Source of the DNA: a virus
IMG/VR virus record: IMGVR_UViG_3300029319_000379
Span: 1 to 23,278 of that record
Reading direction: 5' to 3' (one strand)
Length of the DNA: 23,278 nucleotides
The notes under the pieces were generated by a model that ran no database searches, had not been told where the DNA came from, and was given only the letters and a program-made list of their open reading frames with translations. A program made the position numbers and the translations under genes. How positions within the stretch are numbered: position 1 is the stretch's first letter; each line of letters begins with the position of its first letter. Shown here piece after piece: positions 5,387-22,850 of the stretch.

Positions 5387-5468
5387 TAAGTTGTTGGTAT
5401 CAAAGGACTTAGATCGCGGCGGGGAGGCTTCGCCCGTCGTAAGTCGTTACGGGCAAAGGACTTAGGGC
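5387..5468. repeat. dyad repeat module (copies 3 and 4) with GC-rich core
   Basis: 29-nt dyads at 5387-5415 and 5440-5468, 53 nt apart start to start, enclosing GCGGCGGGG and the small inverted repeat GGCTTCGCC. The right copy touches the stop codon of the gene at 5468. It lies between that stop and the promoter of the next leftward unit. Confidence 0.85.
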
Positions 5469-7096: not shown

Positions 7097-7312
7097 TCAA
7101 TCCTCTTCTGGAGGGAACATCTCATCCCAGCATTTTGGACAAATGCCAGAGATCAGAAGCTCACGCTGACCCGCATCAAGCGTTGGTAACGCTTCTTGGA
7201 TCAACATCTTGCGAGACTGCCAAGCGATGAAATTCTCGAAATCTACTTCGAGTTCATTCACCACCTCACACTTCTTGCAAGGAACCGCCACGACTGAGGT
7301 CATGGCAAACAT
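7097..7312 (-). CDS. small zinc-ribbon protein, paralogue B (71 aa)
   Basis: A 71-residue relative of the gene at 5066-5293. It keeps C12-K-K-C15 and C58-P-K-C61-W, the FIAWQS motif, IQEALPTLDAGQRELLIS and the WDEMF end with an acidic tail. The two copies share the whole signature and differ mainly in linker residues, so this is an old duplication within the phage. Two start codons are possible (residue 1 or 4) and neither has a clear ribosome site. The gene begins about 13 nt after the 3' end of the structured RNA (7325-7672) and may be expressed by read-through from its promoter. Confidence 0.75.
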   Translation of the reverse strand: MFAMTSVVAVPCKKCEVVNELEVDFENFIAWQSRKMLIQEALPTLDAGQRELLISGICPKCWDEMFPPEED

Positions 7313-7324
7313 GATTGTATTGTG

Positions 7325-7672
7325 GGCAGAGGCTTGCGGGAATCGAACCCGCCTTACACCGGCAACGTCTCACGCCTAAAGGTCATCCCCCGCTAAAGGG
7401 ATAGCGTTTAAACACTGTGTGACGCAGTAGCGTCCGGCTTGCTCCTTTGCGAAAAGCCCCATATGTATTGTTTGGGTGCTGAGAGGGTTCGTAATCGTCG
7501 CTCGGAAGCGTCACCTACCCTTTACCTCAGATTTCACCCGTTGTGTGGTGCGTATCTTGAATAGCTCGCCAGCTATACTCGCGACTTGGGCGAGGTTTGC
7601 GGGTCATGCCCTAGTTAAGCTGACCGGCTGAGATTGGCCGTCATCAAGTCGCCTCACAGACTCACTTAACAT
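7325..7672 (-). ncRNA. structured RNA with tRNA-like 3' end (tmRNA-like or novel)
   Basis: A strong promoter (7679-7707) precedes about 350 nt that hold no convincing gene but are GC-rich and highly structured. At the 3' end is a perfect T-arm, GCGGGTTCGATTCCCGC (7336-7352), followed by AAGCCTC (7329-7335). That can pair with GGGGCTT at 7454-7460 as a 7-bp acceptor-like stem, or over 5 bp with GAGGC at 7651-7655. Other elements are an 8-bp helix GCGACTTG/CAAGTCGC (7645-7652 with 7581-7588), nested GGGT/ACCC and CTGAG/CTCAG helices (about 7470-7545), and a hairpin at 7391-7406 whose loop can pair with 7386-7390 as an H-type pseudoknot. Pseudoknots plus a tRNA-like end suggest tmRNA, but no tag frame ending in Ala-Ala is visible, so identity is open. 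No canonical tRNA fits. Confidence 0.55.
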
Positions 7673-7678
7673 GTTATC

Positions 7679-7707
7679 ATTATATCATAATTATCGTCAT
7701 TTGTCAA
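7679..7707 (-). promoter_or_regulatory. promoter of the structured RNA
   Basis: TTGACA, 17-nt spacer with ACGATA, TATAAT on the - strand. The predicted start is around 7672, immediately before the structured region. Confidence 0.85.
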
Positions 7708-7746
7708 GGGGTATCTTGATCAAAATCAGAAAAAACAACCAAATTT

Positions 7747-7788
7747 TCAAAGATCAGTGTCAGGACTTATGAGAGCGTCCCAGTGCAT
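7747..7788 (-). CDS. possible 13-aa peptide with its own promoter
   Basis: On the - strand AGAGGA lies about 9 nt before an ATG opening MHWDALISPDTDL and a TGA. It is the only reading with a ribosome site between the promoter at 7819-7846 and the structured-RNA promoter. It could be a tiny peptide, a leader, or part of a small RNA. A T-rich stretch with TTTTTT follows. Confidence 0.25.
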   Translation of the reverse strand: MHWDALISPDTDL

Positions 7789-7818
7789 CGGGTGCTTTCC
7801 TCTCTGCCTTACTCCCCC

Positions 7819-7846
7819 ATTATATAGTATTATCGGCATTTGTCAA
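7819..7846 (-). promoter_or_regulatory. early promoter with no sizeable gene downstream
   Basis: TTGACA, 16-nt spacer with CCGATA, TATAAT on the - strand, perfect hexamers. Only about 110 nt separate it from the next promoter. It may make a short RNA or read through into the structured RNA. Confidence 0.8.
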
Positions 7847-7898: not shown

Positions 7899-7977
7899 TA
7901 AGTCGTTGGTATCAAAGGACTTAGGGCGGCGGGGCGGCCATTTTTCCCTAAACCATTGCCAGTAAACGACTTAGGAC
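7899..7977. repeat. dyad repeat module (copies 6 and 7) with GC-rich core
   Basis: 29-nt dyads at 7899-7927 and 7949-7977, 50 nt apart start to start, enclosing GCGGCGGGGCGGCC. The first copy shares TTGGTATCAAAGGACTTAG with copy 3. Confidence 0.85.
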
Positions 7978-8357: not shown

Positions 8358-8761
8358 ACTTCTTCCTCTAAATCATCCGAGTCAATCAATCCACCATTTA
8401 CCATTCCACCCACAAGAGCCATTTGATTCCTGTGCAGTTGAATCTCATCCATCTCATTATCTGACCAATCCAAGCCACCATCTAAATCAATGAAATCACC
8501 ACGTTCATTAAATCTAGACTTTTCATCTACTTGATTCCTCAGTCGTTCAATGTTTCGCTGTTTGACCTGTTGACGCTTAACGTGTTCAGTCAAACCATCA
8601 CGCTTGTCACAAAGCTGATCTAAACGGGCAAGGGTGCGACAACCGCGAACATCATCGTGGAACTCAGCAGGAAGCAAGTGATTAGGAACCGTGATTGATT
8701 CCATGATAGCGGTACGGAACTCAGCAATCAGTTTGCCGGATGGTGTGTTTTCAAATTTCAT
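8354..8761 (-). CDS. hypothetical helical protein (135 aa)
   Basis: The start is set at MKFENTPSGKLIAEFRTAIM, which has AAAGG upstream; the longer reading to 8803 crosses the promoter. A central coiled-coil-like part (LDQLCDKRDGLTEHVKRQQV, then KQRNIERLRNQVDEKSRF) lies between a short N-terminal helix and an acidic C-terminus (DLDGGLDWSDNEMDEI... LEEEV). No motif is recognised. First gene of a two- or three-gene unit. Confidence 0.7.
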   Translation of the reverse strand: MKFENTPSGKLIAEFRTAIMESITVPNHLLPAEFHDDVRGCRTLARLDQLCDKRDGLTEHVKRQQVKQRNIERLRNQVDEKSRFNERGDFIDLDGGLDWSDNEMDEIQLHRNQMALVGGMVNGGLIDSDDLEEEV

Positions 8762-8789
8762 AATTAAACCTTTCGTTGTTGTTTCCTCT

Positions 8790-8817
8790 ATTATACATCG
8801 CATCGGCTATTTGTCAA
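8790..8817 (-). promoter_or_regulatory. early promoter, overlapped by the 37-aa membrane gene
   Basis: TTGACA, 16-nt spacer with CCGATG, TATAAT on the - strand. The whole -35 lies inside the C-terminal codons of the upstream 37-residue gene, whose TAG is in the spacer. Confidence 0.8.
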
Positions 8818-8920
8818 GGGGTAGTCCAAATATTTTTGCAATTAAAAGCAAAATAAATAAAAGAACGGGAACGACCACAAACGACATAAACTCATAATTG
8901 TATACTAAATCCATATCCAT
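8807..8920 (-). CDS. 37-aa single-span membrane peptide
   Basis: Starts MDMDLVYNYEFMSFVVVPVL with AAGGTTAAGA upstream. A hydrophobic span of about 19 residues (FVVVPVLLFILLLIAKIF) crosses the membrane, followed by GLPLDK. With its acidic N-terminus and basic C-terminal flank it should be a N-out/C-in span. It overlaps the promoter of the next gene. Function unknown; small phage membrane peptides of this kind include lysis regulators and exclusion factors, but nothing here decides. Confidence 0.6.
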   Translation of the reverse strand: MDMDLVYNYEFMSFVVVPVLLFILLLIAKIFGLPLDK

Positions 8921-22557: not shown

Positions 22558-22589
22558 GGCTACCCTGTTTTTCGGGGTAGCCTTTTTTT
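22558..22589 (+). terminator. intrinsic terminator after the major capsid gene
   Basis: GGCTACCC paired with GGGTAGCC, a 9-nt loop and seven T follow, 27 nt after the stop. Confidence 0.95.
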
Positions 22590-22602
22590 GTATATATCCA
22601 CG

Positions 22603-22617
22603 TTTTTTGTGTATTAT
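22603..22617 (+). promoter_or_regulatory. candidate late promoter after the capsid terminator
   Basis: TTTTTTGTGTATTAT lies right after the terminator and 15 nt before the next start; identical to the 19421-19435 element. Restarts transcription for neck/tail genes. Confidence 0.65.
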
Positions 22618-22631
22618 TAATGGAGGTGGAT

Positions 22632-22850
22632 ATGTTTGGTATTACAGCTTTTTCTGAAGCAGCTTTTAGTGAAGTCAAAGTTTCTGAAAGTGTATTTCTT
22701 GGTACGCTACCGATAATATATTTTAACAACTCCACATTGACTTTTCCACTAAAAATAAACGAGATATCAAATTTTGACTTGACAATCAACAAGTTGCAAG
22801 AGCATCAGCTCTCAATAAACACAGTAATAAATTTTAATGAGGAGAGATAA
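22632..22850 (+). CDS. hypothetical protein, beta-rich (72 aa)
   Basis: The start MFGITAFSEAAFSEVKVSES has GGAGGT four bases upstream; an earlier ATG (22620) overlaps the promoter and lacks a site. The 72 residues are mostly beta (VFLGTLPIIYFNNSTLTFPL) with 'N-E-I-S-N-F-D-L-T-I' and 'Q-E-H-Q-L-S-I-N-T-V-I-N-F' stretches; repeated strand pairs suggest a small fibre- or plug-like structural protein. Not recognised; its late position indicates virion or assembly role. Confidence 0.65.
   Translation: MFGITAFSEAAFSEVKVSESVFLGTLPIIYFNNSTLTFPLKINEISNFDLTINKLQEHQLSINTVINFNEER

Follow-up and report, generated by a model that had tools for sequence, protein, structure and literature searches.

The virus DNA analysed here (the window, 23,278 nucleotides) encodes on its minus strand a phage RNA that ends in a tRNA-like structure. 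It is preceded by promoter sequences, it has neither a tag nor an anticodon, and it recurs in related phages, where its fold is kept by paired, compensatory base changes, which on comparative evidence mark it as a real RNA. We hypothesise, with a probability of roughly one half, that it is a stable tRNA mimic, matured by host enzymes and acting in trans without decoding.

Genomic context and promoters

The window belongs to a virus record of 27.6 kb, which carries terminase, capsid, sigma-factor-like and nucleotide-sugar epimerase genes. Against isolated phages, the best long matches of the terminase reach only 24–26% identity, and the phage group is therefore considered to be uncultivated.

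A strong promoter and a second one upstream of it had been claimed in the preliminary description; both are present and are sigma-70-like in their consensus. Transcription from the main promoter, which is identical in the related loci L001/L004, is predicted to start near 7672. The stretch behind the two promoters contains no convincing ORF and extends to 12 nt before a 71-aa ORF, the neighbour used as a handle for finding homologous contigs. Its parts are as follows, with L001 and L002 as the homologous loci used for comparison:

7819..7846, minus strand: upstream promoter, TTGACA-16-TATAAT with CGATA in the spacer (12/12 consensus match)
7679..7707, minus strand: main promoter, TTGACA-17-TATAAT with CGATA in the spacer (12/12 consensus match)
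7612..7671, minus strand: 5' leader, no conserved structure shown; the sequence is the same as in L001 except beside the motif
7555..7611, minus strand: GACCC RNA motif, 57 nt, three hairpins with conserved loops (CM R3, 75.9 bits)
7474..7539, minus strand: hairpin domain GGGTG/CACCC, CTGAG/CTCAG, GGGT/ACCC (L001 alignment and fold)
7325..7460, minus strand: tRNA-like structure, class I, 136 nt (comparison with L002; CM R2)
7454..7460, minus strand: acceptor-like 5' strand GGGGCTT, pairing with 7335-7329
7440..7451, minus strand: D-arm-like CGC-AAAGGA-GCA, loop GG, one C-A mismatch (L002 counterpart CGC-GUUGGU-GCG)
7434..7438, minus strand: 5' strand of the P2 stem, GCCGG, at the place of the anticodon stem, pairing with 7362-7358 (CCCCG/CGGGG in L002)
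7386..7406, minus strand: possible H-type pseudoknot, CGCTA/TAGCG and TCCC/GGGA (from the sequence; L002 match loose)
7336..7352, minus strand: T-arm GCGGG-TTCGATT-CCCGC (L002 counterpart GCTAG-TTCGACT-CTAGC)
7325..7335, minus strand: acceptor-like 3' strand AAGCCTC, then T-GCC; pairs with GGGGCTT
7097..7312, minus strand: 71-aa ORF with CxxC..CxxC, phrog_20898, beginning 12 nt past the tRNA-like end

The 5' leader could hold a leaderless ORF of 22 codons, MLSESVRRLDDGQSQPVSLTRA.

Promoters of the form TTGACA..CGATA..TATAAT are found at seven places in the window (9402, 7846, 7707, 5345, 1919, 1575 and 267), all on the minus strand. An imperfect palindrome, TAAGTCCTTTGATACCAACGACTTA, occurs in intergenic sequence at 5440-5464 and 7899-7923; it is also seen in several related loci, often next to GC-rich runs, and is a candidate operator or terminator. 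At L002 3347-3396 and in L007/L008, an inverted repeat GTGACC..GATGTGTCAC replaces the -35 box and is followed by GGACGATAATATA, a form that looks like a regulated phage promoter.

The class I tRNA-like structure

The preliminary description had noted a perfect T-arm with a TTCGATT loop, and a 7-bp pairing of its 3' strand with GGGGCTT. Both are confirmed: the pairing includes one G-U, and GGGGCTT is located 108 nt upstream of the T-arm. Resampling produces a perfect 7/7 partner at this spacing in 0.3% of sequences for the window and in 0.14% for L002. A 7-bp acceptor and a 5-bp T-arm with a TTCRANY loop are thus present as in a tRNA, but the anticodon arm with its 7-nt loop is not, a domain of about 70 nt standing there instead. 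The possible H-type pseudoknot sits in this domain. The window copy does not encode CCA (it reads T-GCC-CA), whereas L002 and most of the class II RNAs described below do. As to the G3-U70 pair of alanine identity, the G-U of the window copy is at pair 2 counted from GGGGCTT, and at pair 3 if an unpaired U-U is counted; it is absent in L002.

Gene finders and family models do not recognise this structure. ARAGORN reported no gene, in agreement with the earlier view that there is no canonical tRNA. Searches of Rfam, with GOLLD, ROOL and other phage RNAs included, gave no match at the gathering threshold, and at E ≤ 10 the sole tRNA or tmRNA match was the bare T-arm of beta_tmRNA, at 13.6 bits. 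No tag ending in Ala-Ala-stop was found in the six-frame ORFs or in the three frames of the RNA, again as had been reported. The folding energy is unremarkable (z -1.5 for 346 nt, z -1.35 for the 131-nt end), and the case therefore rests on comparison.

Two kinds of homologue are available. L001/L004, in a 126-kb contig, are near-identical to the window; their tRNA-like part is unchanged while surrounding blocks have been swapped, and in L001 it is near-perfectly identical despite indels in the flanks. L001 was not counted as an independent sequence, being so nearly identical. L002 is divergent in sequence and has the same plan, with a spacing of 106 nt compared with 108 in the window, and an acceptor ACCGGAT/ATCCGGT followed by an encoded G-CCA. 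MAFFT left the 5' acceptor strands unaligned, and for this reason the pairs were compared by hand in register. All 17 pairs of the acceptor, P2 and T-stem are kept between the window and L002, and nine of them are changed on both sides, including five of the seven acceptor pairs and two of the five T-stem pairs. The inserted domain aligns poorly beyond a few short stretches. When CM R2, built from the window and L002, was run across 70 related records, it matched only the window's own record, G001 and G002. Since this gives no third independent member, class I rests on two independent sequences. Pattern matches in L146 and L066 resembled chance or coding sequence and were discarded.

L001 (3956-3986) and L002 (3862-3892) also share a 31-nt stretch, GTGCCACGGGGGTACGTTAAAAATGCCCG and GTGCCACCGGGGTACTTTAAAAATGCCGG respectively, which resembles a small H-type pseudoknot and shows compensatory change. 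The window has no such stretch between the RNA and the 71-aa ORF.

Class II RNAs in related phages

Scans of the relatives for T-arms and for a D-arm pattern, and for L148 the model R1, identified a further set of tRNA-like RNAs, here called class II, with eight members (L088, L090, L136, L143, L092, L093, L126 and L148). They are about 155 nt long and mostly lie directly behind a TTGACA..CGATA..TATAAT promoter, and the tRNA-like structure itself is therefore taken to be the product. The plan consists of an acceptor, an invariant D-stem, a stem where a tRNA would have its anticodon stem, an inserted domain that carries a 7-bp hairpin, and a 6-bp T-stem. Nearly all end in G-CCA, and most encode CGCCA. 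The D-loop pairs with the variable region (GUAGG/CCUAC, AUAGG/CCUAU, GCAAG/CUUGC, GCAGG/CCUGC). In L092, L093 and L126, which are close relatives, up to two acceptor pairs are broken, which weakens the case somewhat.

For the seven sequences aligned, 94.9% of cells are paired, and 17 pairs, the pseudoknot between D-loop and variable region included, show two-sided change in 34 cells. The mean in shuffles was 11.7, none of 500 shuffles reached the observed value, and slid controls gave at most five cells. Pairings are thus kept through two-sided changes in the homologues of both classes. ARAGORN reports no RNA of either class.

A merger of the two classes is not supported. The window RNA scores 13.9 bits against model R1, which is no better than tRNAs, and no pairing of D-loop with variable region was seen in it. 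It is placed in a separate class I, outside class II.

In L143, a second tRNA-like RNA (about 8747-8900, minus strand), ending in ...CACCAGCACCA, stands directly before the class II RNA. The two are separated by TACAATAT, and spacers such as ACAATACA recur around these RNAs.

The GACCC motif and the modular transcript

The 57-nt motif at 7611-7555 consists of a GGG/CCC hairpin, GCAA, a bulged hairpin, a third hairpin and UUCAA. It was found in 22 of the 70 related phage records (for example L125, L132 and L093), with up to four copies per record, and it often begins right at the stop codon of a small ORF. An alignment of 22 distinct copies has 97.4% of its cells paired and two-sided change in 36 cells, compared with 6.7 in shuffles. 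One homologous gene end carries the motif in L141 but lacks it in the window, which implies gain and loss of the motif. Rfam gave no match for it, and no known ribozyme or riboswitch was matched even at E ≤ 10; INPHARED held no counterpart (one chance-level match), and no GTDB genome matched the degenerate motif pattern. The motif represents a new RNA element with strong covariation.

This bears on the preliminary description, which saw a structured RNA of about 350 nt. Its tRNA-like end stands. The single fold does not, because the GACCC motif occurs in other phages without the tRNA-like part, and such an independent, recurring motif means that the RNA is a string of separate modules. The nested helices described at 7539-7474 and the H-type pseudoknot at 7406-7386 can be drawn, but the latter is matched only loosely in L002. 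In the tip hairpin CGCTTCCGAGCG (7510-7499), L001 has a different sequence that is also able to form a hairpin. The proposed 8-bp long-range helix, GCGACUUG/CAAGUCGC, does exist, but other copies of the motif do not preserve it, and it competes with a covarying hairpin of the motif; the GACCC motif thus makes the helix improbable as a real element, and it is probably due to chance.

Possible functions

Two of the suggestions made earlier, a tRNA-like RNA with an upstream leader and a new class of phage ncRNA, are supported by the homologues with compensatory changes. We propose that the RNA would be a phage ncRNA made from its own promoters, ending in the 136-nt structure. It appears to keep the exterior of a tRNA (acceptor stem, D-like loop with GG, and T-arm), with a pseudoknotted domain that would replace the anticodon loop. 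It is probably released and protected by host RNase P, 3' trimming and CCA addition, which would yield a stable small RNA. During infection this RNA may then act in trans as a non-decoding tRNA mimic that keeps a tRNA-binding protein or the ribosome occupied. Such a mimic is favoured because the parts known to tRNA-maturation and tRNA-binding proteins are kept, and the decoding part is gone.

The main rival is a signal for processing in cis, by which RNase P and the 3' tRNA nucleases would split the leader from the mRNA of the 71-aa ORF, leaving an excised piece without function. This fits the window, where that ORF starts only 12 nt after the tRNA-like end on the same strand, but not class II. 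In most class II RNAs only a few nucleotides of leader follow the promoter, and a promoter of its own precedes the next gene, so that there is little to separate by cutting; in L088 the RNA is even downstream of the 71-aa gene. Cutting also needs no pseudoknotted domain. We therefore judge this explanation unlikely, although it deserves more weight than the others.

A further candidate is a decoy reduced to the tRNA-like domain, which would compete with the host tmRNA for SmpB or EF-Tu. Precedent comes from mycobacteriophage DS6A, which has a tmRNA relative of this kind (PMC4131195), and from a similar molecule that inhibits tmRNA (PMC11915505). The window RNA, however, has neither the D-loop of tmRNA nor its GGAC-T-stem signature, Rfam detects the T-arm only, and a decoy would also inhibit the permuted tmRNA of a phage that bears the same RNA. 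By analogy with DS6A it is conceivable, with rather poor odds.

A decaying tRNA surrounded by chance structure would account for the ordinary folding energy and for the failure of ARAGORN to report a gene. It is very improbable given the two-sided compensatory changes in both classes, the strong dedicated promoters, and the near-perfect identity of the tRNA-like part in L001 amid surrounding indels.

Phage tRNAs with introns are known, and the insert occupies the position of tRNA introns in a molecule that keeps its D and T arms, which might suggest a decoding tRNA whose anticodon loop is interrupted by an unusual intron. This is hardly credible, since a group I intron would be longer than the insert of about 70 nt and none is matched in Rfam, and the D-loop of class II pairs with the variable region, unlike that of a normal tRNA.

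The divergent or degraded phage tmRNA that had also been suggested has the least chance of all: a length of about 340 nt, the T-arm, the acceptor-like pairing and the tmRNA genes of relatives speak for it, but there is no tag and no tmRNA D-loop, the 5' acceptor strand is about 130 nt and not about 340 nt upstream of the 3' end, and the tmRNA models RF00023, RF04321 and RF01849-51 stay below gathering with 13.6 bits of 84, on the T-arm only, the window's own record being without a match to RF00023. Permuted tmRNAs are already known from marine phages (PMC9004378), and the 126-kb phage with the near-identical RNA has an ordinary one elsewhere (L175 2582-2780, G001 22582-22780; RF04321, 84.3 bits), with the tag ...ADENLALAA-stop. 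Its T-arm region reads UGCGG-GGCAGUA-CCGCA, which is not a TTCRANY loop, and ARAGORN misses the gene. Two other related phages have a standard tmRNA (VEENFALAA) or a permuted one (GVENYAMAA), with four tRNAs each, and the latter phage also carries a class II RNA (L090/G024). Since these phages have separate tRNAs and tmRNA, the tRNA-like RNA is neither.

Comparison with known systems

GOLLD, ROOL and other large ornate phage RNAs are likewise structured phage RNAs of unknown role, but the window RNA is far smaller and has no Rfam match. tmRNA (RF00023, RF04321) is closer, having a tRNA-like domain, another domain in place of the anticodon arm, and pseudoknots, and occurring in the same phage group. 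The window RNA differs in lacking the tag, the D-loop and the T-stem signature, and in having acceptor strands about 120 nt apart. The DS6A RNA is also a tagless phage tRNA-like RNA, with little beyond the tRNA-like domain and a recognisable derivation from tmRNA (PMC4131195, PMC11915505); here, by contrast, a pseudoknotted domain is present and the tmRNA signature is absent.

The molecule nearest in kind is T4 RNAC (species 1 RNA, rnaC; NC_000866 70908-71046). RNAC and RNAD are stable RNAs of unknown role (PMC3014915, PMC9697503). Like the window RNA, they are phage-encoded, about 140 nt long and not tRNAs, and RNAC has a T-arm, CCGGG-TTCGAAT-CCCGG, near its 3' end together with a long folded insert. 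Unlike the window RNA, it lies in a tRNA cluster and has no clean 7-bp acceptor with the annotated 5' end. INPHARED, T4 included, shows no DNA similarity to the window RNA or to class II, and any kinship would be one of structure.

Phage tRNA-like RNA is a known kind, of which class I and class II are two new classes. They offer a comparative handle on phage tRNA mimics, and demonstrate that tRNA and tmRNA gene finders, and Rfam, miss RNAs that have consensus promoters and compensatory changes. The same transcript also bears a new, well-supported 57-nt motif, found repeatedly after stop codons in related phages. More tentatively, these RNAs may form a family of anticodon-less mimics that have a fast-evolving insert and target the translation machinery or tRNA-directed defence in trans, with T4 RNAC as a distant counterpart. 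If so, an RNA that has been an orphan for decades would gain a class and a testable role.
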